Shown: in pieces, positions 29,691-58,683 of the stretch
Position numbering within the stretch: the first letter of the stretch is position 1
How the letters are laid out: every line of letters begins with the position of its first letter
Notes under the pieces: model-generated
The model's input: the letters and a program-made list of their open reading frames with translations, nothing else
Told to the model about the DNA's origin: nothing
Databases searched by the model: none
Origin: Arenicola marina
Taxonomy: Eukaryota; Annelida; Polychaeta; Arenicolidae
Length of the DNA: 64,000 nucleotides
Direction of reading: 5' to 3'
NCBI GenBank assembly: GCA_964019135.1
Contig: OZ025263.1
Span: 33,954,133-34,018,132, forward strand
Made by a program: the position numbers and the translations under genes

Positions 29691-29699
29691 TACATTTTG

Positions 29700-30871: not shown

Positions 30872-30879
30872 CTATCTTC

Positions 30880-34140: not shown

Positions 34141-34453
34141 TTATTATTACCCATAGGATTTCGGGATTTAACTACAAGACAAAATAGCCTTATTTCACAT
34201 GGAAAAGAGGTTGGTAATACTCACACTTATTCAATACATGTATATCACTTTAACAACCTGAATGAACTGTTCGACGCTTCAGTTTCCGCATATTTTAAAG
34301 AGATCTTCGTTTACATAAACCTTAATACCTGGTTTAGTTTGGCTCTGTTTGAGTGTTACGAATTATTTCGGACGTCAACCGGCAAGACTCTTTGTATAAC
34401 ACCATTTGATTTATCACAAATGTCCTTTATGACAAATAATTCGCTTAAGAAGC

Positions 34454-35303
34454 TCAGGGTTGTGTAGCCCTCTTGTACACCACATCTTGGCGCCCCATGA
34501 CTTTATGCACCTTGTAGCCGCGCTTAGCCACCGGCGAGTTTAGCGCTTTGAGTTTTTGGGACTTACACTTTGGTCATCCCTGAACCCCAAACTCTACCGT
34601 TAAAACGTCAAACGTTATTTTATCGAACGGAATAGTGTCTAGGATCTCTACTTCAGGACCTTCTACATCCAGGGAAAAGTAATCGACGTGGCTGATCTGG
34701 AGAGCCTTGAGAATGGAGTACAACGGAAGGCAGGGGACCTCCACATGTCCTGATAACCGCTTCTTATCCGTTATCGCTCCCAGGCGGCTTTTCTCCATCA
34801 GGTTCGTCAAACCGCCCATCATGTTAGCCACCGTGAATCTAAGAACCGTTGCCCTAGGAACGGGACTCAAACAGCCATTTACCAGGTTCACCCGCCTCTT
34901 CTGGCGAACAGTCTCGAAGTAAGTGGGGTTAGCTTCGATTAGCCAACCGGTCCAGTTGCGAGATTTCTCAAAGAACAATGATTGGGAGAAGGCTTCTCTC
35001 TGGGCAGCTCCACACTCGATGAAAAATCCATTTCTCTTCTTGCCCAGCATTTGATCCACCAGTTTGGATTGTCCAATCTGTGAGTAGTGCGTCCGCCCAG
35101 GCTGCTCCAGCTGTAACGGTCCTGGAGCGGGCGCCACAAACAATGTGTTTTCTGATGTGTTCAATGAGGGCCTCGTCCTCCTGATGAGCACCCACCAGGT
35201 GGGCGGGGAGGGTCTGCACACTCTCAGCAACATCTGGCGGTTCTCTCTCAACAACATCCGACGGTTCTCTCCCAACAGAATCAACTGTCTTCTCTCAACA
35301 ACA
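34454..35303 (-). pseudogene. FkbM (Star-like) methyltransferase copy A; shared frame change and in-frame UGA
   Basis: The FkbM fold is a SAM-dependent methyltransferase domain; animal Star-like proteins with it are usually membrane-anchored in the secretory pathway. The core reads YSQIGQSKLVDQML, NGFFIECGAA (SAM loop), WTGWLIEANPTYF, and SLDVEGPEVEIL, the most conserved FkbM motif and intact here. Upstream the family-like DEALIEHIRKHIV lies in a different frame; one extra base in GTTTGTGG (near 35141) separates the two, as in all copies. At 34574-34576 an in-frame TGA follows VEFGVQG, then 39 codons with a family-like end (GYKVHKVMGRQDVVYKR) run to a stop at 34454. With both changes present the copy cannot give a normal protein unless recoded. 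The 5' end stops at a C-run. Confidence 0.8.
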
Positions 35304-35680
35304 TAACCCCCCCCCCCCCGCCGTGAATATCAAATGGTCCTAACATGAGGTGTTGTTCAGCCTTATGAAATTGTACGACGTCACGCTTTTGTCTTAAAGT
35401 GTTCATTATGTGGAAGAATGCGCCGGGGAACCGACCTAGTCGTGTTTTATTAACGTGAATGTGTGTTATCTAAATAATAAACGACATAACAGTGCATTAT
35501 CTTGATAATAAGCGAACATTCTCTTCATAATGAACAGTTGCTGTTAATATTAATTCAGTATTGTAATCACTCGAGCCGAGCTTAGCTGGGGCGAAAAAGC
35601 TGATGTCAGAACTTGCAAATTTCAAGACGAACATTGGAATGCATACGTATTTTTAGATAAACGAAAAGACCCACGGGATT
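35304..35680. repeat. Poly-C junction and block X fragment between FkbM copies A and B
   Basis: Thirteen C then GCCGTGAATATC, followed by ~345 bases of block X. The join to the next unit lies at GACCCACGGG (near 35670), where block X (GACCCAGGGG at 40259) and block Y's end (ACCCACGGG at 56357) share ACCCA. Confidence 0.8.
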
Positions 35681-35973
35681 TCGGGATTTAACTACAAGAC
35701 AAAATAGCCTTATTTCACATGGAAAAGAGGTTGGTAATACTCACACTTATTCAATACATGTATATCACTTTAACAGCCTGAATGAACTGTTCGACGCTTT
35801 AGTTTCCGCATATTTTAAAGAGATCTACGTTTACATAAACCTTAATACCTGATTTAGTTCGGTTCTGTTTGAGTGTTACGAATTATTTCGGACGTCAACC
35901 GGCAAGACTCTTTGTATAACACCATTTGATTTATCACAAATGTCCCTTATGACAAATAATTCGCTTAAGAAGC

Positions 35974-36825
35974 TCAGGGTTGTGTAGCCCTCTTGTACAC
36001 CACATCTTGGCGCCCCATGACTTTATGCACTTTGTAGCCGCGCTTAGCCACCGGCGAGTTTAGCGCTTTGAGTTTTTGGGACGTACACTTTGGTCATCCC
36101 TGAACCCCAAACTCTACCGTTAAAACGTCAAACGTTATTTTATCGAACGGAATAGTCTCTAGGATCTCTACTTCAGGACCTTTTACATCCAGGGAGAAGT
36201 AATCGACGTGGCTGATCTGGAGAGCCTTGAGAATGGAGTACAACGGAAGGCAGGGGATCTCCACATGTCCTGATAACCGCTTCTTATCCGTTATCGCTCC
36301 CAGGCGGCTTTTCTCCATCAGGTTCGTCAAACCGCCCATCATGTTAGCCACCGTGAATCTAAGAACCGTTGCCCTAGGAACGGGACTCAAACAGCCATTT
36401 ACCAGGTTCACCCGTCTCTTCTGGCGAACAGTCTCGAAGTAAGTGGGGTTAGCTTCGATTAGCCAACCGGTCCAGTTGCGAGATTTCTCAAAGAACAATG
36501 AATGGGAGAAGGCTTCTCTCTGGGCAGCTCCACACTCGATGAAAAATCCATTTCTCTTCTTGCCCAGCATTTGATCCACCAGTTTGGATTGTCCAATCTG
36601 TGAGTAGTGCGTCCGCCCAGGCTGCTCCAGCTGTAACGGTCCTGGAGCGGGCGCCACAAACAATGTGTTTTCTGATGTGTTCAATGAGGGCCTCGTCCTC
36701 CTGATGAGCACCCACCAGGTGGGCGGGGAGGGTCTGCACACCCTCAACAACATCTGGCGGTTCTCTCTCAACAACATCCGACGGTTCTCTTTCAACAGAA
36801 TCAAATTGTCTTCTCTCAACAACAT
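35974..36825 (-). pseudogene. FkbM methyltransferase copy B
   Basis: Second tandem copy, near identical to A. It has the same +1 frame change between HIRKHIV and VAPAPGP, and TGA at 36094-36096 followed by 39 open codons to 35974. NGFFIECGAA and LIEANPTYF are kept, but the key FkbM motif is DVKGPE instead of DVEGPE, a charge reversal at the acidic residue. This change is shared with copy D. The start shown (LLREDNLILLKENRRMLLREN) is in the core frame and is probably not the native N-terminus; the acidic VEREPSDVVEREPPDVVE frame looks more natural. Confidence 0.8.
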
Positions 36826-37508
36826 AACCCCCCCCCTCTCCCCCCCCCCCCCCCGCCGTGAATATCAAATGGTCCTAACATGAGGTGTTGTTCAGCCTAA
36901 TGAAATTGTACGACGTCACGCTTTTGTCTTAAAGTGTTCATTATGTGGAAGAATGCGCCGGGGAACCGACCTAGTCGTGTTTTATTAATGTGAATGTGTC
37001 TTATCTAAATAATAAACGACATAACAGTGCATTATCTTGATAATAAGCGAACATTCTCTTCATAATGAACAGTTGCTGTTAATATTAATTCAGTATTGTA
37101 ATCACTCGAGCCGAGCTTAGCTGGGGCGAAAAAGCTGATGTCAGAACTTGCAAATTTCAAGACGAACATTGGAATGCATACGTATTTTTAGATAAACGAA
37201 AAGACCCACGGGATTTCGGGATTTAACTACAAGACAAAATAGCCTTATTTTACATGGAAAAGAGGTTGATAATACTCACACTTATTCAATACATGTATAT
37301 CACTTTAACAACCTGAATGAACTGTTCGACGCTTTAGTTTCCGCATATTTTAACGAGATCTACGTTTACATAAACCTTAATACCTGGTTTAGTTCGGTTC
37401 TGTTTGAGTGTTACGAATTATTTCGGACGTGAACCGGCAAGACTTTTTGTATAACACCATTTGATTTATCACAAATTTCCTTTATAACAAATAATTCGCT
37501 TAAGAAGC

Positions 37509-38360
37509 TCAGGGTTGTGTAGCCCTCTTGTACACCACATCTTGGCGCCCCAGGACTTTATGCACCTTGTAGCCGCGCTTAGCCACCGGCGAGTTTAGCG
37601 CTTTGAGTTTTTGGGACGTACACTTTGGTCATCCCTGAACCCCAAACTTTCCCGTTAAAACGTCAAACGTTATTTTATCGAACGGAATAGTGTCTAGGAT
37701 CTCTACTTCAGGGCCTTCTACATCCAGGGAGAAGTAATCGACGTGGCTGATCTAGAGAGCCTTGAGAATGGAGTACAACGGAAGGCAGGGAACCTCCACA
37801 TGTCCTGATAACCGCTTCCTATCCGTTATCCCTCCCAGGCGGCTTTTCTCCATCAGGTTCGTCAAACCGCCCATCATGTTAGCCACCGTGAATCTAAGAA
37901 CCGTTGCCCTAGGAACGGGACTCAAACAGCCATTTACCAGGTTCACCCGCCTCTTCTGGCGAACAGTCTCGAAGTAAGTGGGGTTAGCTTCGATTAGCCA
38001 ACCGGTCCAGTTGCGAGATTTCTCAATGAACAATGAATGGGGGAAGGCTTCTCTCTGGGCAGCTCCACACTCGATGAAAAATCCATTTCTCTTCTTGCCC
38101 AGCATTTGATCCACCAGTTTGGATTGTCCAATCTGTGAGTAGTGCGTCCGCCCAGGCTGCTCCAGCTTGAACGGTCCTGGAGCGGGCGCCACAAACAATG
38201 TGTTTTCTGATGTGTTCAACGAGGGCCTCGTCCTCCTGATGAGCACCCACCCGGTGGGCGGGGAGGGTCTGCACACCCTCAACAACATCTGGCGGTTCTC
38301 TCTCAACAACATCCGACGGTTCTCTCTCAACAGAATCAAATTGTCTTCTCTCAACAACAT
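37509..38360 (-). pseudogene. FkbM methyltransferase copy C
   Basis: Third tandem copy. It keeps the intact DVEGPEVEIL motif but has an additional CAG-to-TAG at 37752-37754 (ILKAL-stop-ISHVDYF), which the other copies lack. It has the shared frame change near the HIVCGA stretch, and the shared TGA at 37629-37631 with the 39-codon tail open (KVLGRQDVVYKR, Met to Leu). The 5' edge is the C-run at 38363-38377. Confidence 0.8.
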
Positions 38361-39031
38361 AACCCCCCCCCCCCCCCGCCGTGAATATCAAATGGTTCTA
38401 ACATGAGGTGTTGTTCAGCCTTATGAAATTGTACGACGTCACGCTGTTGTCTTAAAGTGTTCATTATGTGGAAGAATGCGCCGGGGAACCGACCTAGTCG
38501 TGTTTTATTAACGTGAATGTGTGTTATCTAAATAATAAACGACATAACAGTGCATTATCTTGATAATAAGCGAACATTCTCTTCATAATGAACAGTTGTT
38601 GTTAATATTAATTCAGTATTGTAATCACTCGAGCCGAGCTTAGCTGGGGCGAAAAAGCTGATGTCAGAACTTGCAAATTTCAAGACGAACATTGGAATGC
38701 ATACGTATTTTTAGATAAACGAAAAGATCCACGGGATTTCGGGATTTAACTACAAGACAAAATAGCCTTATTTCACATGGAAAAGAGGTTGGTAATACTC
38801 ACACTTATTCAATACATGTATATCACTTTAACAACCTGAATGAACTGTTCGACGCTTCAGTTTCCGCATATTTTAAAGAGATCAACGTTTACATAAACCT
38901 TAATACCTGATTTAGTTCGGTTCTGTTTGAGTGTTACGAATTATTTCGGACGTGAACCGGCAAGACTCTTTGTATAACACCATTTGATTTATCACAAATG
39001 TCCCTTATGACAAATAATTCGCTTAAGAAGC

Positions 39032-39890
39032 TCAGGGTTGTGTAGCCCTCTTGTACACCACATCTTGGCGCCCCATGACTTTATGCACCTTGTAGCCGCG
39101 CTTAGCCACCGGCGAGTTTAGCGCTTTGAGTTTTTGGGACGTGCACTTTGGTCATCCCTGAACCCCAAACTCTACCGTTAAAACGTCAAACGTTATTTTA
39201 TCGAACGGAATAGTCTCTAGGATCTCTACTTCAGGACCTTTTACATCCAGGGAGAAGTAATCGACGTGGCTGATCTGGAGAGCCTTGAGAATGGAGTACA
39301 ACGGAAGGCAGGGGATCTCCACATGTCCTGATAACCGCTTCTTATCCGTTATCGCTCCCAGGCGGCTTTTCTCCATCAGGTTCGTCAAACCGCCCATCAT
39401 GTTAGCCACCGTGAATCTAAGAACCGTTGCCCTAGGAACGGGACTCAAACAGCCATTTACCAGGTTCACCCGTCTCTTCTGGCGAACAGTCTCGAAGTAA
39501 GTGGGGTTAGCTTCGATTAGCCAACCGGTCCAGTTGCGAGATTTCTCAAAGAACAATGAATGAGAGAAGGCTTCTCTCTGGGCAGCTCCACACTCGATGA
39601 AAAATCCATTTCTCTTCTTGCCCAGCATTTGATCCACCAGTTTGGATTGTCCAATCTGTGAGTAGTGCGTCCGCCCAGGCTGCTCCAGCTGTAACGGTCC
39701 TGGAGCGGGCGCCACAAACAATGTGTTTTCTGATGTGTTCAATGAGGGCCTCGTCCTCCTGATGAGCACCCACCAGGTGGGCGGGGAGGGTCTGCACACC
39801 CTCAACAACATCTGGCGGTTCTCTCTCAACAACATCCGACGGTTCTCTTTCAACAGAATCAAATTGTCTTCTCTCAACAACATAACCCCC
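39032..39890 (-). pseudogene. FkbM methyltransferase copy D
   Basis: Fourth tandem copy, nearly identical to B including DVKGPE. Shared frame change and shared TGA (39152-39154) with a 39-codon open tail. In this copy the core frame runs back through the C-run (glycines on the minus strand) to a methionine at 39937, but that is chance reading of non-coding amplicon sequence. B and D resembling each other more than C suggests the block was duplicated as a pair or converted. Confidence 0.8.
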
Positions 39891-40960
39891 CCCCCCCTCC
39901 CCCCCCCCCCGCCGTGAATATCAAATGGTCCTAACATGAGGTGTTGTTCAGCCTAATGAAATTGTACGACGTCACGCTTTTGTCTTAAAGTGTTCATTAT
40001 GTGGAAGAATGCGCCGGGGAACCGACCTAGTCGTGTTTTATTAATGTGAATGTGTCTTATCTAAATAATAAACGACATAACAGTGCATTATCTTGATAAT
40101 AAGCGAACATTCTCTTCATAATGAACAGTTGCTGTTAATATTAATTCAGTATTGTAATCACTCGAGCCGAGCTTAGCTGGGGCGAAAAAGCTGATGTCAG
40201 AACTTGCAAATTTCAAGACGAACATTGCAATGCATACGTATTTTTTATATAAACGAAAAGACCCAGGGGAAGGGGGCACTATATTTTGTTAGGTACATAC
40301 ATATGTGCAACCCAAATGACCCCTTTTTCGCCTTTTTTCTCTCGATCATCGGAGAAGAAATCTAAAATTTCTCTCGATGTACCCTTCTTAGACTGAAGTT
40401 TTATAAAAAAAATTGTAGCTTTGGCTATATATTCCAGTTGATATCGAAAGTGTTCAATTAATTACCCTCCATATACATTGCCATGACTGTTAGTGTTTAT
40501 TTTGGATGCCTTTTTAAGTATAAAGCACTCTATCAATGACCACAAAATCTGGCATGTTTCTCTCGCTCTCCATATGGCTTCCATGGTCTGGGCGGCACAC
40601 CCCTATCACGGTTATATTGTAGTATCCCCCCCCCCCCACGGGCGAAAAGGTAGGACGGCAAGGCAGTTGAGACCCGCACTACGAATTGTGACCTACAACC
40701 CATATTTCCAGTGTGAACAAAAGATAGATATCGGGGGGGGGGGGAGGCTAAGACACCCGGCCTGTCGTAAGAGCAACATTTACCAATCATTCCAACCCCC
40801 CCCACCCCCCCGATCGCAAGTTATCAGTGACTTCCCCCCTTTTCAAATCCCTAGATCCACCCCTACTACTGTAGAACGATCTGGTAGAGGGAAGACATCC
40901 AAAATTCGTGTGGTGCATCAAGTTACTGGGGGGGGAGGGGGGGTGGAGAGACACTTTAAA
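39886..40960. repeat. Amplicon block X, second full copy
   Basis: Matches 31291-32330, including the poly-C start, AACGACATAACAGTGCATTA, and the C-runs near 40626 and 40795. Non-coding. Confidence 0.85.
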
Positions 40961-42311
40961 TGAGGGCGTTACCCAAGATAGGAGAAGGTAGACACCCAAA
41001 GTTGGGGTGGTAGCCTACGTTAGTAGGCAGGGAGACACCAGTTAGGGAAGGGGAGACGCCCCAAATTATGGGAGGGGAGACACCCCGTTTTCACATTCCT
41101 AGATCCGCCCCTCCTACTGCAGAGATATGTCTTAGGGAGGGCGTAGGCCGACACAGGGATGGGGAGGGAAGTGCACAAGCCAAGTTCGGGCGCTACCCAA
41201 CGTTACGAGAGAGGACACCGTAGGTTAGCGGAGGGGGCACACCCCGAGTTGGGGTGGTACACCCTTTTTCTTGTGGAGAGACATTCAAAATTCGGCGCTT
41301 CCCCAAAATAGAGAAGGGAAAACACCTCAAGGTAGGGGAGGAGAGAGACCCCAAGTTTGGCAAGGGGAGAGACCCCAAGCGGGTGTGACCCCCATTTGGG
41401 GTCCTACCAGAAGTTAGGGGACGGGAGACACCAGAAGTTAGGGGAGGGGAGACGCCCTAAGGTAAGGTGATACCCGAAGTTAGGGGAGGGGAGACACCCT
41501 AATTTAGGAGAGGGGAGACATCCTAAGGTCAGGTGATACCCCAAGTTAGGGGAGGGGAGACATCATAAGGTCAAGTGATACCCCAAGTTAGGGGAGGGGA
41601 GACACCCTAAGGTCAGGTGATACCCCAAGTTAGGGGAGGGGAGACACCCTAAGGTCAGGTGATACCCCAAGTTAGGGGAGGGAAGACACCCTAAGGTCAG
41701 GTGATACCCCAAGTCAGGGGAGGGGAGACAGCCTAAGGTCAGGTGATACCCCAAGTTAGGGGATGGGAGACATCCTAAGGTCAGGTGATACCCCAAGTTA
41801 GGGGAGACAGCCTAAGGTCAGGTGATACCCCAAGTCAGGGGAGGGGATACACCCTTTATTTAGTAGAGGGGAGACAGCCTAAGGTCAGGTGATACCCCAA
41901 GTTAGGGGAGGGGATACACCCTAAGGTCAGGTGATACCCCAAGTTAGGGGAGGGGAGACACCCTAAGGTCAGGTGATACCCCAAGTTAGGGAAAGGGAGA
42001 CATCCTAAGGTCAGGTGATACCCCAAGTTAGGGGAGACAGCCTAAGGTCAGGTGATACCCCAAGTCAGGGGAGGGGATACACCCTTTATTTAGTAGAGGG
42101 GAGACAGCCTAAGGTCAGGTGATACCCCAAGTTAGGGGAGGGGATACACCCTAAGGTCAGGTGATACCCGAATTTAGGGGAGGGGAGACACCCTAAGATC
42201 AGCTGATACCCCAAGTTAGGGGAGGGGAGACACCCTCAGGTCAGGTGATACCCCAAGTTATTGGAGGGGATACACCCTAAGATAAGGTGATACCCCAAGT
42301 TAGGGGGGGGG
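40960..42311. repeat. 42-bp minisatellite, second array
   Basis: Degenerate up to ~41400, then ~20 well-kept 42-bp units. Short higher-order copies are visible (a unit pair with CCCTTTATTTAGTAGAGG at 41850 and 42080). The array breaks off at a G-run directly against LINE sequence at 42312. Confidence 0.9.
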
Positions 42312-43620
42312 GAGACCGTAGAGATAAATTAGCACTACAATACGCACTTAAGCTGAAGATAAATCCCAATAATCCTACTTTTGAAGACGTATTCCATCCA
42401 TAGTTTACAACACTATTTGAAAACAAACCAAAGACAATACCCACCTTAGGAATTCGAGTTAATAACCTTTTGACAAGGTACAATATCAATTTCAACGATA
42501 TACGAACCTGGCACCTCCCAGAAATCCCACCGTGGGAAATGGAATCTCCAAAAGTTCTGTCAGAACTAGCAACTTACAACAAATCTGACAGAGACCCATC
42601 ACAATTTATAGAACTTAAACATGCTATCCACAATCAACACCCCAATCATTCCTCAATATTAACCGATGGCTCAAAAGACTCCCACATGGCCGCTGCAGCT
42701 GTAGCTGGTGAGCACCAATGCAGCAACTGCCTCCCAGACCAATGTTCTATATATACCGCAGAAGCAATAGCTTTAATCATGGCACTTGAATATGTAGAAC
42801 AATCACTACATGACAAATTTATCATATATACAGATTCCCTGAATAGACCAATGTTCTATATATACCGCAGAAGCAATAGCTTTAATCATGGCACTTGAAT
42901 ATGTAGAACAATCACTACATGACAAATTTATCATATATTCAGATTCCCTATCATGTATAAAAGCCATCCCTTGATACAGGATATACTGATAAAATGTCAT
43001 TATTTAATATGCAATGGAAAGGCGGTATTGTTCTGCTGGATCCCTAGCCATATAGGCATAGAGGGCAATAGTCTAGCAGACGCTGCCGCCAAAGAGGCTC
43101 TGAATGACGACGTCCTTCCAGTCCAGTTTCCATACTCGGACTTGAAGCCGTACATCCAAAATGAAATTACTACAAATTGGCAGTCGTCGTGGGAGGAGCA
43201 ATCCTCCAATAAATTACAACGGCTTCAGCCTACTGTGGGTACCAAACGGCCAAGAATCCGCGGTAGGCGGAATGACGTTGTCATTCGAAGACTCCGAATT
43301 GGACATACGTACCTTACCCATTCCTACCTCCTCAAAGGAGAACCACCTCCCGAATGTGTACCCTGTCAGGAACCCCTGACAATGGAGCACATTCTGTTGA
43401 GATGCGTTGACTTCCAAGAAACAAGGGATGATTATTACAAATTTAAGACAACTTTTTAAAACTGTACCAAATCAAAAGATTTTAGACTATTTATCTGCAA
43501 TAAATCTAGTCAAATGTATGTGAAATCTAGTCAACATATACTGGCCTATACATATACTGTCAAACAGTACATTTATCTGTATTTATTAATCTCGAAAGTG
43601 TGGTTTTAGAAACCAACGTC
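42312..43620 (+). mobile_element. 5'-truncated I-clade LINE fragment with internal 109-bp duplication
   Basis: It begins inside ORF2 (DKLALQYALKLK region) and carries RNase H (TDGSKDS near 42663, AEAIALIMALEY) and the C-terminal cysteine cluster up to ~43440, then 3' UTR. The RNase H segment 42737-42845 is tandemly repeated at 42846-42950; 109 is not a multiple of three, so the frame is lost. A short deletion follows near 42967. More diverged from the two array copies than those are from each other, so it is an older insertion. Confidence 0.85.
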
Positions 43621-43639
43621 AACATTCATGGTTTTATAT

Positions 43640-44575
43640 AAAACCATCCAAAGTTTACAACACTATTTAAAAACAGACCAAAGACAATCATGCTATCCAC
43701 AGTCAACACCCCACCCATTTTCTCTGGGTGGCCGCTGCAGCTGTTGTTGGAGAACACCAGTGCAGCAACCGCCTCCCAGGCCAATGTTCTATATACACAG
43801 CCAAATCAGTGGCTCTAATAATAGCACTTGAATATATAGAAACCTCACTACATGACAAATTTATCATATACTCAGATTCCCTATCATGTATAAAAGCCAT
43901 AGAACATCACAAATTTCTTCGCGAAAATATAACCGAAACAACCTAGTGTCGACACACTTTATTGATGTCAGATGATAGAACAAGGTATATAGAATATATA
44001 AACACTATGATTATTCGAGCACACATTATAATAAAAGCTACAGTCGATACCCTACTAACGTCGAAGGATTTTAACATTGTTACCGTTGTGCCCCTAGAGA
44101 AGCGGGCTTGCCTGGGGGCGCATGCGCCAAATCACAAATATGAACATCCCTTCATAGAGGATATACTGATAAAATGTCATTATTTAATATGCAATGGAAA
44201 GGCGGTAGTGTTCTGCTGGATCCCTAGCCATATAGGCATAGAGGGCAATAGTCTGGCAGACGCTGCCGCCAAAGAGGCTCTGAATGACGACGTGCTTCCA
44301 GTCCAGTTTCCATACTCGGACTAAATTATTAAAAAGTGGCAGTCGTCCTGGGACGAACAATCCTAAAATAAATTACAACGGCTTCAGCCTACTGTGGGTA
44401 CCAAACGGCCACGAATCCGCGGTAGGCGGAGGGACGTTGTCATTCGGAGACTGCGAATTGGACATGCGTGCCTCACCCATTGCTATCTCCTCAAAGGAGA
44501 ACCACCTCCTGAATGTGTTCACTGTCAGGAACCCCTGACAGTGAAGCACATTCCCTTGACGATTCTATCGTTCTT
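43640..44575 (+). mobile_element. Second, more rearranged LINE fragment
   Basis: A short piece of the linker is joined to RNase H (AAAAVVGEHQCSNRLPGQCSIYTA near 43730, YSDSLSCIKAI near 43870), then, after an insertion at 43915-44130, the WIPSHIGIEGNSLADAAAKEAL end (44215-44285) and the C-terminal cysteine cluster. Frames are broken by several deletions. It probably came from a tandem or nested duplication of the neighbouring fragment. Confidence 0.8.
43915..44130. mobile_element. 216-bp insertion of unknown family
   Basis: Interrupts the LINE fragment between YSDSLSCIKAIEHHK and its continuation. ATCACAAAT occurs on both sides (43906-43914 and 44131-44139), a 9-bp target duplication. I see no terminal inverted repeats or coding capacity. 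Confidence 0.6.
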
Positions 44576-46418: not shown

Positions 46419-46685
46419 ATGGCGGGAATTCCCTTGGATGTCTACAGGAGTCCGCTGACCGCCCGGGGGGCTGCCCCGGCGGCCGTGAAGTGCTCCCCGC
46501 GCAGCCCGGTCCTGCGCAGCCTGGAAGGGGAGTTCCTGAACGACGGGGTGAAGACCCACGTGCTGAGCCGCTCCAGACGGCGACCCATCATTCCGCAGTA
46601 TGAGGCGAGGGAAGACCCGGCCTCGGCGGGGTACTTCCAGACCGCGCTCGCCCAGGTTGTGCTCAACCTGACCCTCTCAGACACG
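46419..46685 (+). CDS. Exon 1 of a modular, likely ciliary/axonemal protein
   Basis: I chose ATG 46419 because of its strong context (AAAATGG) and because family-like sequence starts there (MAGIPLDVYRSPLT). The exon codes 89 residues and ends in phase 0 at ACACG/GTAGGA. It holds module 1: EGEFLNDGVKTHVLSRSRRR then PIIPQYEAREDPASAGYF. The same pattern (E-x-x-F-[IL]-N-D, basic run, P-x-Y-[DE]-x-x-x-D, YF) returns in exons 2 and 4. Short Pro/Tyr/Asp-Pro modules of this kind are typical of microtubule inner or associated proteins of cilia and sperm tails (for example the SPMIP/CIMIP groups), but I cannot name an orthologue. An in-frame upstream ATG at 46281 is possible but less likely. Confidence 0.6.
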
Positions 46686-46704
46686 GTAGGACCTTACACA
46701 GCGG

Positions 46705-48010
46705 TAGATATAGGTCCAGAGATATAGGCTCAGAGATACAGGTCCAGAGATACAGGGTCAGAGATACAGGTCCAGAGATACAGGCTCTGAAACATAGGTC
46801 CGGAGATATAGGCCGGGAGATATAGGTCCGGAGATATAGGCCCAGATATATAGATCCGCAGATATAGACCCCTAGATATATTCCCAGAGATATAGGTCCA
46901 GAAAAATAGGTCCGGAGATATAGACCCGGAGATCTGGCCCGGAGATATAGGTCCACACGAGGCCCAGAAAATATAGGTCCAGAGATATAGGTCCAGCGAT
47001 ATAGGTCCAGAGATATAGACCCCGAGATATACGTCCGGAGATATAGACCCCGAGATATACGTCCGGAGATATAGGCCCAGAGATATAGGACCCAAGATAT
47101 ATGCCCAGAGATATAGACTCTGAGATATAGGTCCGGAGATATAGGCCAGGAGATATAGGCCCAGATATATAGATCCGCAGATATAGACCCCTAGATATAT
47201 TCCCAGATATATAGGTCTAGAGATATATATCCGGAGTTATAGGCCAGGAGATATAGGCCCGGAGATATAGGTCCAGAGAAACAGGCCCTGAGATATAGGT
47301 CCGGAGATTTAGGCCCGGAGATATATGTCCAGAGATATAGGTCCAGAGATATAGGCCAGGAGATTTAGGTCCAGAGATATAGGCCCGGAGATATAGGCCC
47401 CTAGATATAGGTCAAGATATATAGACCCCTAGATATAGGTCAGAGATATAGGCCCGGAGATATAGGTCCAGAGATATAGGTCCAGAGATATAGGCCCGGA
47501 GATATAGGTGCGGAGATATAGGCCCAGATATATAGATCCGCAGATAGAGACCCCTAGATATATTCCCAGATATATAGGTCCGGAGATATAGGCCCGGAAA
47601 TATAGGTCCAGAGATATAGGTCCAGAGATATAGGCCCGGAAATATAGGTCCAGAGATATAGGTCCAGATATATAGGTCCAGAGATATAGGTCCGGAGATT
47701 TAGGCCCGAAGATATAGGTCCACAGACACAGGCCTAGAGATACAGGCCCAGAGATATAGATCCAGATATATAGGCTCAGAGATATAGATCAGCAGATATA
47801 GACCCCTAGATATACTCCCAGAGATATAGGCCCGAAGATGTAGACCCCTAGATATATTCCCAGAGATATAGGTCCAGAGATATAGACCCGGATATATAGG
47901 TCCAGAGATATAGGCCCGAAGAAATAGACCCAAAGATATAGACCCCTAGATATATCCCCAGAGTTATAGACCCGGGGATATAGACCCGGAGATATAGACT
48001 CTAGATATAG
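46705..48010. repeat. 14-bp GGTCCAGAGATATA minisatellite filling intron 1
   Basis: About 90 copies of a 14-bp unit with GATATA constant and the first half variable (GGTCCAGA, GGCCCGGA, GACCCCTA). It starts about 20 bases after the exon 1 donor. Larger blocks recur (GATCCGCAGATATAGACCCC near 46854, 47173, 47537). Confidence 0.95.
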
Positions 48011-48302
48011 CAAGTGGTGTCCACCCCCCCCCCCCCCTCCCTCCCTCTGACGGTGCAAATATTGCGTATGCTTATTCCTCTACTCGTCATCCTACCCCGA
48101 TATCGATCTAATCTTTACGTTGAGCTATCTTCAGTAATTAGGCACTTTAAAATATTGATGATTTCGTGCATGGAAATCGAATATGGCTGTCCTTACTATA
48201 TATATATGATTAACAATGAGGAGTTGCAGCTGCTTGGGTATGACACTGGTAAGTCTTTTCGTGTACATCACTAGAGATTTTGAACGTCCGAGTATTCCAC
48301 AG

Positions 48303-48629
48303 GAAATTCCTCCAGCGCGAAAAAGCTTCAACAAGTTGAGCAGCCGGCGGCTCTGCAAGAAAACCCCGAGCCCTGGAGAATTAACAGAGCGTGAAAACAC
48401 CTTTATCAACGACGCCATTCCGACCGAGAAGCGAAGGACGCCGTTCAAGGACACGCTGCTTCCCAACTACGACGGCCAAACTGACCCCCACAGCCAGAGT
48501 TACTTCCGGCGGAGTGACGTCACCATGCTGGTCAACCAACAGAAGTTCCGCGAACTTCCGGTGATGTCGCGGCGCCATCGCCCTCTGACCCCTGTGACCC
48601 CATCGGGAAGGTCATCTGGGAGTAGACGG
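48303..48629 (+). CDS. Exon 2 of the modular ciliary-type gene
   Basis: The acceptor is TTCCACAG at 48295-48302; the exon enters in phase 0 and codes EIPPARKSFNKLSSRRLCKK onward. Module 2 is the best preserved: ENTFINDAIPTEKRRTPFKD, then LLPNYDGQTDPHSQSYFRRS and DVTML. It ends at AGACGG/GTAAGT (48629), giving 109 residues in phase 0. A second donor 54 bases later (CAG/GTAAGT at 48684) fits the U1 consensus even better and would lengthen the exon to 48683, adding 18 residues (VSPLTFVAQSGRSSGNGQ). The C-terminal SGRSSG phrase is the repeated part. Confidence 0.65.
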
Positions 48630-48800
48630 GTAAGTCCGTTGACCTTTGTGGCCCAATCGGGAAGGTCTTCTGGGAATGGACAGGTAAGTCCGTTGACTTT
48701 TGAGACCCCATCGGGAAGGTCGTCTGGGAGTGAAGTGGTAGTCCGCTGACCTTTGTGACCCCATCTGGAAGGTCTGGGAGTGGACAGGTAAGTCTACTGG
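48575..48800 (+). repeat. Tandem 54-bp repeat containing the exon 2 splice donor
   Basis: Four units spaced 54, 54 and 50 bases. GT donors start at 48630 (GTAAGT), 48684 (GTAAGT), 48738 (degraded, GTAGTC) and 48788 (GTAAGT). Each unit has CATCGGGAAGGTC upstream and CCGTTGAC downstream of the donor. The frame stays open through unit 3 and closes at TGA 48747-48749. Confidence 0.9.
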
Positions 48801-49593
48801 TGAAGGCAGACAGACAGACTAATGACCCACTTTATTGACTTGTTTCAATATCTGCGTGAGTATTTCAAAACTAAAGTAAATATATATCTAAAACATGTTT
48901 CCTGGTAGGGTACGAGGGGTGTGTGGGGAGGATGGCGGTGGGGGGGGGGAGACAGGCTAATCAACAGGCGGATAAACTATCACGTCAGCAGTCCTTCGGC
49001 AGGTGACAGACAACGTCCGCAGAAAACTTAAAACCCAAGCTTCAACCAGGCGCAGGTTAGTTTTAGGCACGCGGTCTTCGTTATGAGTAGATTTACACAG
49101 AACATATCGGGTCGTATTATATTATGTCACTCCACGTACCAAGCGCAATCTGAGCATTGTGCTTCAGGACGTGTCGATAATTGACGAGTTACTGGTGTTC
49201 AACATGCCAGCCGCCAGCCCAAGCATGACAATCACCACCATTATATACCGATGGAAATGCGTAAATAAAGATTTTCTCATATGATAATAATTGGAAACAA
49301 ATTCGTAAGTTTTTTAGAAGTAGCCAGTCGCGGAGTGTGGGATTATTTTATCCCTGACATGACGTCACCATGGTTCGTAGCCAAATGTGAGACGCAGAGC
49401 CATGCCGTCTCGGGGGGCGTGTCTGCCCTCTTGTATTCCGGATATATACATAAATGTAATATAGTCACTATTTTCCGCTGGTATATTTAGCAATTTTTCA
49501 GGCCGCGATTTAGGTCTGAATTTGTCCTTAATATGATTTTTTTTTCTTAATTTGAGATAAACCTAATTATAATTCTTTCTTATCATATGTTAG
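48800..49593. other. Intron 2 remainder
   Basis: No repeats or coding motifs of note. It ends with a T-rich stretch and TTAG, the proposed acceptor of the small exon 3. Confidence 0.5.
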
Positions 49594-49631
49594 GTTGGGC
49601 GGTCGTCACGTGGTCAAACGCATGCCTCCAG
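49594..49631 (+). CDS. Proposed 38-nt exon 3 of the modular ciliary-type gene
   Basis: Bounded by ATATGTTAG and CTCCAG/GTGAGT. At 38 bases it turns phase 0 into phase 2, which is exactly what exon 4 needs (its acceptor leaves one base of a codon). It reads VGRSSRGQTHAS plus a split Ser, echoing the SGRSSG phrase at the end of exon 2. The phase fit and echo support it; no transcript evidence. Confidence 0.5.
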
Positions 49632-50053
49632 GTGAGTTGTCCTAACTTTGAGTGAAGATCAATGCCCAATCAGAGATGTTCGAGATTAGTAAATATATAG
49701 AAGGTGGACCAGTGATTGCACAGGTACCAGTGATTGCGCACTTGCCGAAATGCATTTTCATTATTGTATTCATATGAAATTGAGTCCAAACATTTTAACC
49801 AGACACATGTCTTCATGTGTGACAGCTACCCTGACGTTCATTTTGTCAGATTCCAAGCAAGCTGCTTATTATTTCAACCATTATTGGCTTTGTGCGCAAT
49901 CACTGGTCTGATAGCCATAGTGTTTGCTGATGTAACCTACATTGGAAAAAAAACAGCGAGTTCGAATGGTATTATATGATTTAGTTTTGCTTGGCAGTTT
50001 TATGTACTAAACATGATAAATAATAATTATATTTTATTTGTTCTTCGCAAAAG

Positions 50054-50276
50054 TCCAAGTTACAGCGAGCGGACTCCGTACCTCTCAACTCAGCAACAGG
50101 TAAACTGGCCGCCCACACCCTCCAGGTCACCCGGACGTCACCATGGCAATAAAGAAAACAGCTTCATCAATGACGCGATCGTGACAGACAAGCGGCGGTC
50201 ACGGTTCAAGGATATCATTCCCCCTTACGACGCCACCAGAGACGCGCATGCGCAGAGCTACTTCGATAAGACAGAT
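50054..50276 (+). CDS. Exon 4 of the modular ciliary-type gene
   Basis: The acceptor is TTCTTCGCAAAAG at 50041-50053. It codes PSYSERTPYLSTQQQVNWPP, then module 3: ENSFINDAIVTDKRRSRFKD, IIPPYDATRDAHAQSYFDKT, D. It matches module 2 at about two-thirds of positions. The donor chosen (GAT/GTACGG at 50277) is weak, but it is in phase 0 and the next exon then reads TTVL, aligning with VTML after module 2. The alternative of reading on ends at a stop at 50310. Confidence 0.6.
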
Positions 50277-50384
50277 GTACGGCGTCTTATGTCCGTCACG
50301 TGCAATGTGTGATAGCCTCGATCTCCCGGTAGAAGACTGTCCGCTTGCGATATAGTCCCTGTGCCCCCGTCGATGTCAAAGGCG

Positions 50385-51060
50385 TGAGACTTTGACCTCG
50401 TGTAACTTACAGCTTCTGATGTCTGTGACTTGCAGTGTATGGTGTGACTTACAGCTTCTGATGTCTGTGACTTGCAGTGTATGGTGTGACTTACAGCTTC
50501 TGATGTCTGACATGCAGTGTATGGTGTGACTTACAGCTTCTGATGTCTGTGTCGTGCAGTGTATGGCGTGACTTACAGCTTCTGATGTCTGACATGCTGT
50601 GTATGGTGTGACTTACAGCTTCTGATGTCTGTGACGTGCAGTGTATGGTGTGACTTACAGCTTCCGATGTCTGACATGCAGTGTATGGTGTGACTTACAG
50701 CTTCTGATGTCTGACATGCAGTGTATGGCGTGACTTACAGCTTCTGATGTCTGTGACGTGCGGTGTATGGTGGGATTTTCAGCTTCTGATGTCTGTGACG
50801 TGCGGTGTATGGTGGGATTTACAGCTTCTGATGTCTGACGTGCAGTGTATGGTGTGACTTACAGCTGCTGATGTCTGTGTCGTGCAGTGTATGGTGTGAC
50901 TTACAGCTTCTGATGTCTGTGTCGTGCAGTGTATGGCGTGACTTACCGCTTCTGATATCTGTGACGTGCAGTGTATGGCGTGACTTACAGCTTCTGATGT
51001 CTGACATGCAGTGTATGGTGTGACTTTCAGCTTCTGATGTCTGCGACTTGCAATGCCTGA
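50385..51060. repeat. 42/40-bp minisatellite in intron 4
   Basis: About 16 units of TGACTTACAGCTTCTGATGT plus CTG(TG)AC[GT]TGCAGTGTATGG, alternating between 42- and 40-base forms. The unit itself contains CTTACAG, a possible decoy splice acceptor. Confidence 0.9.
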
Positions 51061-52440
51061 TGTGACGTCTTTGTTTCAACGACATTTCGCACAGGATAGC
51101 GTTGTACACGAGAATACCACTTTGCACCATGTACCTGCCCAGGTGTCGTAAATCATTACTTCACAACAGCTTATGCACATTATAACGATCAATTATACAG
51201 TAAGATCATGTATACGCAATTAACAGCGCCCAACGTATTTTCCGGCTACCCTTGACAATGGAATTTCCCTTTCGCTACACGACCCTAGTCATGATGGTAC
51301 CTAGCACAACTAGAACCAGAACCAAATTTACTGTCGCCCCACAGTGAACCATGTTTTAGTTAACTGACGAAGTCTTGCTAGAAAATGATGAATCATAACG
51401 CAACCATGTTACAATTTTATCAGAACCAGATTTAAATAGTTGTGTGTATCATAACCCAAACGTGGTACCACTTTTCACAACTATGGTTAAATTTCTTATT
51501 TGTAGAGTACGTCATCAAAATTGGCACATGTGTAAGCGGATTATTATTCGGCTCACTTTATCTCGATCCCAAGCCGTTGGCTGACCGTTAATGACTGACA
51601 ATTTATTTGCTTTCATATCTTTATTTGTCATCCGTCGTTTCGATAAATAAATACATTCACCTCCACATACAGTCGTTCTCGTGACTGTGGCCCGTCGATA
51701 ATGGCCACAACTGTCACTCATACAATGAGTAATGTATCATAATACACGCCTAACAGTAAAAACATCTAGTCATTATATAGGTCGAAGTTGTCGTATGAGA
51801 AACACATCCCTGTGACATGCTGATCACTGCCAAGAGCAACATGAACCGTGCGTCTCGATATCAGCGGAATCACCTACGATTATCCCACTTCATGAAAGCT
51901 GCAATCTCTTCAGTGACAGTGTTCTGTATTAATTATGTAAAGAACGTGTGGCCGAAGGCACCTGCAAAACGACTGTCAGTAGTAGTGAAGCAAGCTCAAA
52001 AACCAGAAAACCTGTCATTGGAAAAACATCAAACCACGTATTGCTTTGTGATACAATGTCATAAAAATTACTACTCTTATAAGGCAATATATGTCCTAAC
52101 ATTGTAAAATCTTTGTTTTATTTACGTGCTGTGTGCTTTGAAATGGGGAGATGAGGACCAGCATTTTAGGTGAGTGCCTGAGGCGCCCTTCCTATAGACA
52201 TATGCTTGGCGCATAGCACATCCCTCAATATTTTGAGATCATGGGGTTACTTATCTTTTTAATTTGCGGACATACATAAACTGCCAATTTATCCGATTCA
52301 CGCGTTGAAGTAGGTCATTTCAATTAATCGATCGTGGATCAAAAACCACTTTTTTTTCGTCACTGTGGCGACACGCACGGGCCAATGTTGTGCCACATAC
52401 AGTTAGATTTTGCCATTTGCGATGTGACGAACGAGATTGC
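51061..52440. other. Intron 4, middle part
   Basis: AT-rich sequence without coding motifs or clear repeats. Short frames here have no family features. Confidence 0.5.
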
Positions 52441-52962
52441 AGATTATCCCCAGGTCTCGACCAGTAGATTATCTCCAGGTCTCGATCAATTGATTATCTC
52501 CAGGTCTCGATCAGTTAATTATCTCCAGGTCTAGATCAGTTGATGTCTCGATCAGTAGATTATATCCAGGTCTCGATCAGTTGATGTATCAATCAGTAGA
52601 TTATCTCTAGGTCTCGATCATTAGATTATGCCCAGGTCTCGATCAGTTAATTATCTCCAGGTTTCGATCAGTTAATTATCTCCAGGTCTAGATCAGTTGA
52701 TGTATCAATCAGTAGATAATCTACAGGGGTCGATCCGTAGATTATCTCCAAGTCTCGATCAGTAGATTATGCCCAGGTCTCGATCAGTTAATTATCTCCA
52801 GGTCTAGATCAGTTGATGTCTCGATCAGTAGATTATATCCAGGTCTAGATCAGTTGATGTCTCGATCAGTAGATTATATCCAGGTCTCGATAAGTTGATT
52901 ATATCCAGGTCTCGATCAGTTGATGTCTCGATCAGTAGATTATCTACAGGAGTCGATCAGTT
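52440..52962. repeat. ~25-bp minisatellite in intron 4
   Basis: About 20 units built from GATTATCTCCAGGTCTCGAT plus CAGTT, with shorter GATGTCTCGATCAGTA variants interleaved. CTCCAG/GTCT looks splice-site-like but has no frame. Confidence 0.9.
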
Positions 52963-53095
52963 GATCATCAATATCTATTTCTAATTGTCGTTGATACATC
53001 ATCTTCAATCAGTATAGCAGTGACAGTATGTGGCACTATTGTAATTAAGATAACAGTGACAATATGGGATATTTTAACTACCTTAGTCTCAGTGA

Positions 53096-53380
53096 GGGGC
53101 CGGCCAGGTAGCTCATTGGGTTAAAGCACTGGCATTCAGCGCTCTGGCCCCTGAGAGCCTAACGGCACGTGGATCAGTGGTTCGAGCCCCGCTGTGACCA
53201 TGCATGTGTGGTGGCAAGATAAAGATCCTGTGTCCTTTATCGTAAAGAGTAGGGGTTACCCCCCGGGGACATGGCTCCGCTCTCCCTTCCTTCTCCCTTC
53301 TCCCAGCTCTTCCCGTTGCCGGCCAGTGTCAAGAGCAAGATGAAAGCTTTTACTTTCCTGTGTCATTCCAATCCAATGAG
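53096..53380 (+). mobile_element. tRNA-derived SINE
   Basis: The 5' end GGGGCCGGCCAGGTAGCTC carries a Pol III A box (53106-53124) and GGTTCGAGCCC at 53179-53189 is a good B box. Beyond the tRNA-like head lies a unique body with pyrimidine-rich CTCCCTTCCTTCTCCCTTC near 53285. Its head resembles the fragments in the sulfotransferase units. The 3' limit is uncertain; I saw no clear target duplication. It lies in intron 4 in sense orientation. Confidence 0.7.
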
Positions 53381-54160
53381 GCAAACTGCATGAGCAAATG
53401 AAACTCCTGGGATGCAAATGGCATGAAATTGAAAAGAATATTACATTTAGAGGCTTGGGCAGTTCAGAAAGAATTGCTTGATAACATTACGTTGTAGACT
53501 CTGACCCCTAGGCACGGTGAGAAAAAGGTCATAATTGGGTACTAATTATTGCATACTGACCTCTTTATCAGAAGCTGGGGAGTCATCTTTCATTCGCGGA
53601 ATTTTCTTCCTTTTTGCTTTCCTCAATTCAGGTAGACTTGGTAGGTCACCTGCAAATTCATCAGGACTATTCATAGGTCGAAGCCTATTATGTCATGTCT
53701 TTAATAATTAAATCAGCTTCCCCACAAAATTAACGAATAAATTATTTAATGCTAACACTGGATGTATACTTCAAATTAAAGTTAATTTATAAGCGACGGA
53801 CTAAATGTCTGTTGCCAAGCAGAGCGCTCTTGGTGACCGCCAGTCGGCTGCTGTCATAGTGAGTAGTTGTGGCGTCAAAATGTTATAAACATGACGTCAC
53901 AATGGGAGTTCTTAAGCAACCGAAGGATATGCCACAAGCACGTGCATGGTATACGTCATCCCGCCAAAGATATTCTTTATGGCAAGCCGATGTGAGATTA
54001 ATTTTGAATATTAATGTAGATGTATCCCCTCGGAATATTGGAATTAATAAATATACGCTCGCATTTTATAGGTAGCACCTATCCATATTAACACCAAGGC
54101 AAACTTTTTTGTATAAAATATTTGGTCTCTATGATGTTTCTTTCTCTCTTTTCGACATAG

Positions 54161-54466
54161 ACAACTGTTCTGTATGCCGGTTACTTTCCAACTCCCAGAC
54201 AATCCTATGAGGTCTCTGCCGGGGGTCCGATAGCGGCCAACGCCAGCAATGGGGCCATCCAGAAGACAAGAGATCTGATCCCAGCTGCGCTAACTGCGTT
54301 AAACTATGCAGTAAAGATACACAATGATCGTACAAACTGGACCCCTAGTCCAGGAGTCACCATGGTTACAGCCACAGGTGGCCCTAATGAGTCTCAGGGT
54401 GTAGCAGACGTGCACGCGGAATCAGACCGCGACTTCAATCTACTGAACATAAAGGTCGCTCCATGA
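54161..54466 (+). CDS. Last exon (5) of the modular ciliary-type gene
   Basis: A strong acceptor (TTTCTTTCTCTCTTTTCGACATAG, written in parts: polypyrimidine then ATAG at 54157-54160) opens a phase-0 frame of 101 residues and TGA at 54464. It starts TTVLYAGYFPTPRQSYEVSA and ends DRDFNLLNIKVAP. No module of the earlier type and no recognised domain, but composition is clearly coding. Only ~35 bases separate the stop from the 42-bp minisatellite and no AATAAA is seen before it, so the 3' UTR must run through the repeat. The five proposed exons join in phase to 386 residues, or 404 with the longer exon 2. Confidence 0.6.
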   Translation, partial: TTVLYAGYFPTPRQSYEVSAGGPIAANASNGAIQKTRDLIPAALTALNYAVKIHNDRTNWTPSPGVTMVTATGGPNESQGVADVHAESDRDFNLLNIKVAP

Positions 54467-54502
54467 AGCATGTTTCTATGTTGTCCCAAGCCTACACACG
54501 GA

Positions 54503-55620
54503 TTGATACCCCAAGTTAGGGGAGGGAAGACACCCTAAGGTCAGGTGACAGCCCAAGTTATGGGAGGGGATACACCCTAAGATAAGGTGATACCCCAAGT
54601 TAGGGGAGGGGAGACACCCGAATTTAGGAGAGGGGAGACATCCTAAGGTCAGGTGATACCCCAAGTTAGGGAAGGGGAGACACCCTAAGGTCAGGTCATA
54701 CCCCAAGTTAGGGGAGGGAAGACACCCTAAGGTCAGGTGAAACCCCAAGTTATGGGAGGGGATACACCCTAAGGCCAGGTGATACGCGAAGTTAGGGGAG
54801 GGGACACACCCTAAGATCAGGTGATACCCCAAGTTAGGGGAGAGAAGACACCCTAAAGTCAGGTGATACCCCAAGTTATGGGAGGGGATACACCCTAAGA
54901 TCAGGTGATACGCGAAGTTAGGGGAGGGGACACACCCTAAGATCAGGTGATACCCCAAGTTAGGGGAGAGAAGACACCCTAAACTCAGGTGATACCCCAA
55001 GTTATGGGAGGGGATACACCCTAAGATAAGGTGATACCCCAAGTTAGGGGAGGGGAGACACCCTAAGGTCAGGTGATACCCCAAGTTATGGGAGGGTATA
55101 CACCCTAAGATAAGGTGATACCCCAAGTTAGGGGAGAGAAGACACCCTAAACTCAGGTGATACCCCAAGTTATGGGAGGGGATACACCCTAAGATAAGGT
55201 GATACCCCAAGTTAGGGGAGGGGAGACACCCTAAGGTCAGGTGATACCCCAAGTTATGGGAGGGGATACACCCTAAGATAAGGTGATACCCCAAGTTAGG
55301 GGAGGGGAGACACCCTAAGGTCAGGTGATACCCGAAGTTAGGGGAGGGGAGACATGCTAAGGTCAGGTGATACCCCAAAGTTAGGGGAAGGGAGACACGC
55401 TAAGTTGATGGAGGGGTAAAACCCAAATTAGGGGAGGGGCGACACCCAACGTTGGGGTGGTACCCTAAGTTACGGGAGGGTAGACACCTAAAGTTAGGGG
55501 TGGGGAGGCTCCATAAGGTAAGGGAGGGGAGACAATCCAGTTGTTAGGGAAGGGGATAAACCCAAGTTGGGGTTGTACCCCAAGCTCAGAGAGGGAGACA
55601 CATCATGTTGGGGGTGGGGC
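54503..55620. repeat. 42-bp minisatellite, third array
   Basis: About 20 regular 42-bp units and then degenerate ones, the same family as 32330-33425 and 40960-42311. The minus strand reads a 14-residue period (GYHLTLGCLPSPNL) without stops because 42 is divisible by three; this is not evidence of a gene. Confidence 0.92.
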
Positions 55621-56360
55621 ACCCTTCATTTGCACAGAACGTCTCACTTATTAAACAGTGAAAATTTGCAGATTTATATAAATCAAACCGGTATTTATGA
55701 CGGTGGAAATACAAGTGATGATTGCTAGAACCCCCCCCCCCCCCCCCGCCCCCCCCCCCCACACCCTCCATTTTTATATCTGTTTTATACCTTTGTTTTA
55801 TCGTGCCTATCTAGACCGGCATAGAGATAGATCTGCGCAAAGATAAGACGCGTATATAGTCGATTAAATTGTGGAAATCGGACAATTTATAAAGAAACTT
55901 TCATATTAAATATATTTAATTTGTGTTTGTTGTATTTGGTAGATTAAGTAACAACTCATTCAATATAGCAGGCGAAGGGTACGCAGGTCACAATTCGTAG
56001 TAGGGGTCTCAGTTATAACGCTTCTTTTCCACTTCGTGTTAGGACAAAGACGTATTATATTTTAGTGTAACGGGGGTAGGGTAAACCACCCCCGTAAAAA
56101 ATATGTTCCAATCATTAGATTTCGGTAGATTTTGAAAATGATATTCACAGATGCATAAGGAATGAGAAAAAACAGGTTTGATTACTATTGCAATTTGTTT
56201 CGGGTTGACCGCTGATTCAGCACAGGCTGCCCGGACTAGCGGTGTAGACACCAAAGATAGTCTGCGACATAATATAGAAAATATGAATTGTTGGCCAAGA
56301 AATACAAACATCTTTTCTGTCATTGATTCAAATTCCTAATATTCACAATTATTTTTACCC
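55620..56360. repeat. Amplicon block Y, second copy
   Basis: Matches 33426-34140 with scattered differences and a longer C-run at 55732-55760. Together with the minisatellite on its left and the FkbM copy on its right it shows that minisatellite, block Y and FkbM were duplicated as one segment. Confidence 0.85.
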
Positions 56361-56660
56361 ACGGGATTTCGGGATTTAACTACAAGACAAAATAGCCTTA
56401 TTTCACATGGAAAAGAGGTTGGTAATACTCAAATTTATTGAATACATGTATATCACTTTAACAACCCGAATGAACTGTTCAAAGCTTCAGTTGCCGCATA
56501 TTTTAATGAGATCTACGCTTACATAAACCTTAATTCCTGGTTCAGTTCGGTTCTGTTTGAGTGTTACGAATTATTTCGGACGTGAACCGGCAGGACTCTT
56601 TGTATAACACCATTGATTTATCACAAATGTCCTTTATAACAAACAATTCGCTTAAGAAGC

Positions 56661-57700
56661 TCAGGGTTGTGTAGCCCTCTTGTACACCACATCTTGGCGC
56701 CCCATGACTTAATGCACCTTGTACCCGCGCTTAGCCATCGGCGAGTTTAGCGCTTTGAGTTTTTGGGACGTACACTTTGGTCATCGCTGAACCCCAAACT
56801 CTACCGTTAAAACGTCAAACGTTATTTTATCGAACGGAATAGTGTCTAGGATCTCTACTTCAGGACTTTCTACATCCAGAGTTAAGTAATCGACGTGGCT
56901 GATCTGGAGAGCCTTGAGAATGGAGTACAACGGAAGGCAGGGAATCTCCACATGTCCTGATAACCGCTTCTTATCCGTTATCCCTCCCAGGCGGCTTTTC
57001 TCCATCAGGTTCGTCAAACCGCCCATCATGTTAGCCACCGTGAATCTAAGAAACGTTGCCTCAGGAACGGGACTCAAACAGCCGTTTACCAGGTTCACCC
57101 GCCTCTTCGGGCGAACAATTTCGAAGTAGGTGGGGTTAGCTTCGATTAGCCAACCGGTCCAGTTGCGAGATTTCTCAAAGAACAATGAATTGGAGAAGGC
57201 TTCCCCCTGGGCAGCTCCACACTCGATGAAAAATCCATTCCTCTTCTTGCCCAGCATTTGATCAACCAGTTTGGATTTTCCAATCTGTGAGTATTGCGTC
57301 CGCCCAGGCTGCTCCAGCTTGAGTGGTCCTGGATCGGGCGCCACAAACAATGTGTTTTCTGATGTGTTCAATGAGGGCCTCGTCCTCCTGATGAGCACCC
57401 ACCAGGTGGGCGGGGAGGGTCGAGTTCTGCACACTCTCAACAACATCTGGTGGTTCTCTCTTAACAACATCCGACGGTTCTCTCTCAAGAGAATCAAATA
57501 GTTTGTCCTCAACAACATCCGACTGCTGGTTTTCCACAGCCCCCGACCTCTCCGCAAGACGCCCCTCCTGGCCCAGGGCAGGGTTGATAAGGGAGGCAGG
57601 GTTCACCTCGCCCTTCCTACCGAGCCCTGGCAACCGAACGACCTCATATCTCACAGCGGCCACAAGGAGTGCTGCTCTGATACACAGGGGTATCGCTGAC
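56661..57700 (-). pseudogene. FkbM methyltransferase copy E, longest N-terminus
   Basis: It lies 16.8 kb from the tandem group and is the most diverged. The core has NGFFIECGAAQGEAFSNSLF, LIEANPTYFEIV and a degraded DVESPEVEIL. The shared extra base before VAPDPGP and the shared TGA (56781-56783, here after VEFGVQR) are present; the tail has one more stop (TAA near 56711). Unlike A-D it does not end at a C-run. The N-terminal frame continues upstream through VENQQSDVVEDKLFDSLERE to a hydrophobic IPLCIRAALLVAAV near 57660-57700, which looks like a type II signal anchor. So this copy preserves the ancestral 5' end, while A-D were cut at a C-run. Confidence 0.8.
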
Positions 57701-57939
57701 TTTCATCGGCCGTTCATCGTGCAGTCCGTGCGGGCGTCACCAAGAAAGACGCACCCAGACATCCCCAGCAAGCCAGGCGTGCGGTGGAACGGTGAAGACA
57801 AGTGAAAGAACCGTATGGGCGTCTCTGTATTATAAATTAGCTAAGGGGCTGATGGGGTGGGCGCTGGATGTGGGACATAGTGGACCCACGTATGAGGCGC
57901 CATAGTGCACAAAACACCCTTTGCACGCAAGGGTTGAGT

Positions 57940-58165
57940 GTGAACCAGACTGGGTTGAGTGTGGGGCTGCATGGGTTGTGTCTGAGCATTCATGGGTTGA
58001 GTTTGGATCTGCATGAGTTGAGTGTGGGTCTGCATGGGTTGAGTGTGGGTCTGCATGGGTTGAGTGTGGGCCTGCATGGGTTGAGTGTGGGCCTGCATGA
58101 GTTGAGTGTGGGCCTGCATGAGTTGAGTGTGGGCCTGCATGGGTTAAGTGTGGGCCTACATGGGT
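57940..58165. repeat. 21-bp minisatellite
   Basis: About ten units with GGGTTGAGTGTGGG[CT]CTGCAT. On its left at 57883-57900 lies CGTATGAGGCGCCATAG, nearly the same as the arms of the fold-back repeat at 63118-63687. Confidence 0.9.
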
Positions 58166-58224
58166 TGTGTCTGATTCATAATTCATTTGGCAAGCGAGCA
58201 ACGTTTTAAGCTAGGCTGTGCTCC

Positions 58225-58620: not shown

Positions 58621-58683
58621 GGCGAGGTTTCAGAGCCCCTGGTTCAGCGGAAAGGAGAGAGTGTGGTTAAGCTTTTGTCCTTT

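Follow-up and report, generated by a model that had tools for sequence, protein, structure and literature searches.

Five FkbM methyltransferase-like copies (A–E) were analysed on the minus strand of a 64,000-base stretch of Arenicola marina DNA (the window; contig C18). On present evidence (probability about 0.97, from sequence comparison) A–E are pseudogenes amplified from an FkbM gene that was already broken, and no frameshifting would occur at the junction between the N-terminal helix and the methyltransferase core, at which all five change frame. Amplification of a broken gene had been the simplest option of an earlier, sequence-only reading of this DNA; it is supported by the single-frame junction of 35/35 relatives, a second lesion common to 12/12 copies, the position of these copies on a single branch, and unconstrained change. 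The other option of that reading, +1 recoding as a family trait, was rejected: there are joined relatives, and change in the copies is not distinguishable from neutral. The copies were located as follows.

Copy A: 34454..35304, minus strand; putative FkbM pseudogene fragment without the N-terminal anchor; frame offset at 35138-35147, shared TGA at 34574-34576.
Copy B: 35974..36825, minus strand; putative FkbM pseudogene fragment like A; shared TGA at 36094-36096.
Copy C: 37509..38360, minus strand; putative FkbM pseudogene fragment like A; shared TGA at 37629-37631, TAG at core codon 147.
Copy D: 39032..39883, minus strand; putative FkbM pseudogene fragment like A; shared TGA at 39152-39154.
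Copy E: 56661..57717, minus strand; putative, more complete pseudogene with the N-terminal anchor region kept; frame offset; shared TGA at 56781-56783.

The offset together with the TGA leaves A–E with no continuous frame from the N-terminal region via the core to the C-terminal end. The core of copy B, scanned as representative, matched Pfam PF05050 (Methyltransf_21) at 45.2 bits (gathering cut-off 22.7). Copy E lies 17 kb from D and, as noted previously, has a different 5' end: it retains the start region, and A–D are without it.

The helix/core junction in the copies and their relatives

The word GTTTGTGG was found on the minus strand at 35134-35141, 36654-36661, 38189-38196, 39712-39719 and 57341-57348 (A to E, respectively). 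At every one of these sites the helix (DEALIEHIRKH; DEALVEHIRKH in C) was read in one frame and the sequence from VAPAPGP or VAPDPGP onward in the next, as had been claimed for all five copies. The word occurs 10 times in the window (2.7 expected by chance), five times at these junctions and five times elsewhere.

The genome (867 Mb, 762 contigs) was searched for the offset junction by pattern (up to 3 mismatches); 12 places only were obtained: A–E and seven copies in a second region of C18, about 120 kb away, comprising six tandem units (F1–F6) and an E-like copy (E2), all with the offset and the TGA. In a protein search of the genome 150 of 166 candidates were scored and 72 matches listed, so that the counts are lower bounds; 47 loci were read across the junction (A–E, the seven other C18 copies and 35 others). 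These cover 49 of the 72 matches; the remaining 23 are two partial matches (E 2e-39 and 2e-36) and matches of 9e-17 or weaker. Helix and core stood in a single frame at 35/35 of the other family loci; the offset was thus present in 12/12 C18 copies vs 0/35. Thirty-one of the joined relatives had no stop in the core, and four (L024, L044, L050, L054) were broken elsewhere in it. In two of the latter, L050 (C2:4107460-4108025) and L054 (C13:1411796-1412348), the core is split in two frames at another place than in A–E; these are apparently separate pseudogenes. The closest relative among the matches listed, L019 on contig C8 (93% core identity), is an intact paralogue with an open frame of 383 amino acids that crosses the junction unbroken (156 codons before it, 227 after). 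Single-frame relatives within the genome make it unnecessary to invoke unusual decoding.

The extra base had been assigned to a T inside GTTTGTGG. This did not hold: the identical word, GTTTGTGGCGCCCGCTCCAGGACC, is present unchanged in three frame-joined C8 relatives (L001-L003, the same places as L022-L024), where it sits inside a 24-base exact match to the copies. In the junction alignment the one-base length difference fell just upstream of GTTTGTGG, within the codon for Met in the HMFVAP of the relatives; the earlier placing is a few bases too far downstream.

Further lesions, tree and substitution pattern

A TGA at core codon 188, absent from the earlier reading, was found in 12/12 copies, about 40 codons before the family C-terminal end. 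The site is Cys in 29/35 relatives (by eye); in the other six, L050-L055, the sequence has diverged or is broken at another place. Both lesions would be older than the amplification because they are common to 12/12 copies, in line with the earlier claim that the offset came first. Later lesions differ from copy to copy. A TAG at core codon 147 is common to C and F2-F5; core-frame stops in the second array are: F1, TGA; F2, TGA and TAG; F3 and F4, TAG each; F5, TAG and TAA. Copy E carries a TAA at core codon 212 and, in the N-terminal frame, a TGA at codon 5, the latter shared with E2; the tandem copies are without that region. The Gly of the GAAxG motif (defined from the relatives), which we take to have a role in cofactor binding, is replaced by Arg in 10/10 tandem copies and kept in E and E2; 34/35 relatives have it, and in L050, the exception, the frame is broken at that site. 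Core codon 147 is also TAG in L024 (C8:18205611-18206171), as in 5/10 tandem copies, and is open in its near-identical sister L023; either parallel change or conversion would account for this.

A 25-row tree of the 12 offset copies and 13/35 relatives placed the offset copies on one side of one branch (support 100/99), with E and E2 as a pair (99/98) and the ten tandem units as a group (99/96). Core of the 12 copies (226 codons): 67 changes, 20 synonymous, 43 non-synonymous, 4 stops; codon positions 23/18/26; synonymous share 0.299 vs 0.272 expected without selection (p 0.68). Omega was about 0.88 for the 12-copy clade; for pairs of relatives, omega and synonymous share: L019/L022, 0.26 and 0.58; L022/L023, 0.30 and 0.53; L023/L025, 0.27 and 0.56; L019/L023, 0.37 and 0.48. 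On the stem of the clade 8 changes were fixed (1 synonymous, 6 non-synonymous, 1 stop), and on the L019 branch there were 5 (4 synonymous, 1 non-synonymous). Among the ten tandem copies 38/678 core sites were variable vs 23/282 in the 3' flank (Fisher p 0.15). The core of the 12 copies has changed without visible coding constraint. The comparison of synonymous and non-synonymous change on either side of the junction, proposed earlier as a check, was thus neutral on the core side (20/67); the helix side offered just 5 variable sites in 66 bases (codon positions 3, 2, 2, 1, 1).

Several observations weigh against pseudogenes drifting freely beside constrained relatives. The pair L023/L024 gave a synonymous share of 0.17 (6 differences, 1 synonymous, 1 stop), and hence not every relative is evidently under selection. 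Mean pairwise divergence of the tandem copies was lower in the core (0.0178) than in the 3' flank (0.0247) or 5' flank (0.0298), and in the stretch just upstream of the junction 2/81 sites varied (p 0.30 vs core). The six copies without a core stop ahead of the TGA (A, B, D, F6, E, E2) gave 14/37 synonymous changes and codon positions 12/7/18; this slight third-position excess (p 0.14 vs neutrality) is compatible with constraint that is weak or was lost recently. Changes could also be masked, or passed from copy to copy, by gene conversion.

Proposed origin and alternative explanations

A–E would descend from a functional FkbM (Methyltransf_21) gene in a single frame, such as C8 still carries, that was copied as DNA to C18 together with its flanks. 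Around L019, a C8 segment (L059) is similar to the window on either side of the gene (28700-31627, 85%; 56234-58166, 90%); this match beyond the coding region points to copying of genomic DNA, flanks included. The copying itself is proposed from the matching flanks, and its direction, from C8 to C18, is likewise a proposal. One C18 copy would then have acquired the one-base insertion at the helix/core junction and the Cys-to-stop change near the C-terminal end. A piece without the N-terminal anchor would have become the 1.52-kb tandem unit, the area would also have been duplicated about 120 kb away, and the copies would have drifted from then on without visible coding constraint. A ribosome entering in the helix frame would most likely be in the wrong frame after the junction and meet a stop within 56 codons or fewer.

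A quite unlikely alternative is that the core open reading frames (ORFs) of B and D, perhaps also of A and F6, are transcribed and give a short FkbM-like protein that lacks the anchor and has its N-terminus in a new frame. The core frame has no stop between an ATG and the shared TGA in B (ORF 36094-36825, 243 amino acids) and in D (ORF 39152-39937, 261 amino acids), and these ORFs contain the core; the PF05050 match of copy B and the slight third-position excess of the open copies also fit. Against this stand the stops of sister copies in the same frame, the Gly-to-Arg change in the motif of 10/10 tandem copies, the missing N-terminal anchor and the clade-wide neutral pattern. Such a protein, if real, would be the product of a young gene that arose from a broken one.

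A +1 shift programmed between helix and core as a family trait has a negligible probability, although the offset is common to all 12 clade copies and their open runs overlap where helix meets core. Beyond the junction, the helix frame is open for 56 codons in 10/12 copies (27 in E and E2), and its counterpart is likewise open for 56 codons in the joined L019, L022, L023 and L024. Upstream of the junction the core frame is open for 62-86 codons in the copies; counterparts are L022, 64; L023, 53; L024, 76; L025, 39; closest relative L019, only 8 codons. Overlapping open runs of similar length are thus found in the joined L022-L024 as well, and those of the copies would be largely inherited from the intact gene. 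Openness of both frames on each side in all copies, which had kept recoding under consideration, is contradicted by the stops in C, F1-F5, E and E2. The junction is single-frame in all 35 other family loci, the drift of the copies looks neutral, and an in-frame TGA follows downstream in the core frame of 12/12. Furthermore, the junction has neither a stop codon in the helix frame nor a known shift site (by eye). In animals the antizyme shift site is UCC_UGA. Other known +1 sites are CUU_AGG_C of Ty1 and GCG_UGA_C of yeast antizyme, with UGA_C important, as given in one account (PMC5009743).

An assembly or sequencing error can be practically discounted: apart from the offset being a single base no point speaks for it, the same base difference recurs at two places of the assembly, in 12 copies with a mutual divergence of up to about 5-6%, and the site has no long mononucleotide run. 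Bridging of the offset by an intron or an alternative splice site is no more credible, as L019, a close relative, shows no break in its open frame at the junction and the copies differ there by one base, with no inserted stretch.

With A–E read as pseudogenes, one candidate for +1 recoding is removed, and in annotation they should be marked as pseudogenes and not as five short methyltransferases. For such cases the approach is the combination of joined paralogues in the same genome with a second shared lesion.

Surroundings of the copies and comparison with known systems

Copies A–D form a tandem array whose spacings were 1520, 1535 and 1523 bases; those of the second array were 1521, 1523, 1519, 1533 and 1504. 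The duplicated segments of the window are:

34149..40270, unstranded: tandem array of copies A–D; units of gene fragment plus non-coding flank, spaced 1,520-1,535 bases.
31290..33306, unstranded: repeat of the segment that lies to the right of copy D (about 39902-41973, 87%).
31870..59147, unstranded: present again at C18:34109000-34138800 as co-linear pieces, 91-98% identical; both ends were set by the stretch compared, and the duplicate may extend further.

The repeat of the right flank of copy D at 31290..33306 indicates a larger nested duplication around the array. A 42-base minisatellite (ACCCCAAGTTAGGGGAGGGGAGACACCCTAAGG...) lies beside the FkbM copies at 32863-33212, 41496-42316 and 54504-55488 and is part of the nested duplication. 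A G-rich minisatellite (unit about 40 bases, roughly 116 copies) occupies 24600-29691, and arrays related to it were found within about 4 kb of two C8 FkbM genes (L059, 1-1032; L060, 587-1038).

Other features of the window: 72-base tandem repeat at 21278-22648 (17.7 copies), open on both strands (456 amino acids plus, 448 amino acids minus), the minus-strand frame, which was the one scanned, giving no Pfam match; two Sulfotransfer_2 ORFs on the minus strand, 2756-3760 (334 amino acids) and 8354-9226 (290 amino acids); retroelement pieces on the plus strand at 12626-16520 and 60-1727, in which separate ORFs encode endonuclease, reverse transcriptase and RNase H domains. Nothing in the PDB matched by sequence at E 0.001 and nothing in Rfam at gathering scores; ARAGORN predicted no tRNA. 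Titles and abstract openings on FkbM in molluscs, family expansion, methylated glycans and snail N-glycans included none concerning the C18 locus; an FkbM-domain gene is named among the factors of a clam that respond to Vibrio, in an excerpt of one report (PMC9125321).

With programmed +1 frameshifting (antizyme, yeast Ty1, Euplotes genes) the copies share two overlapping open frames and a +1 offset, nothing more; they differ from it in having no family-wide need, no purifying selection seen, and no recognised shift site or junction stop. With the FkbM paralogues (PF05050; C8, C7, C2, C13 and other contigs) they share the core, and with L019 also an identical helix, LPAHLVGAHQEDEALIEHIRKH, and an identical C-terminal RGYKVHKVMGRQDVVYKR; L019 differs in its N-terminal hydrophobic stretch, its single frame, the Cys at the TGA of the copies and the Gly at the Arg of the tandem copies. 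From tandem-amplified duplicated (non-processed) pseudogenes no departing feature was found in A–E; common to both are old lesions that are shared, later ones that are private, change without visible constraint, and non-coding flanks carried along with the gene.

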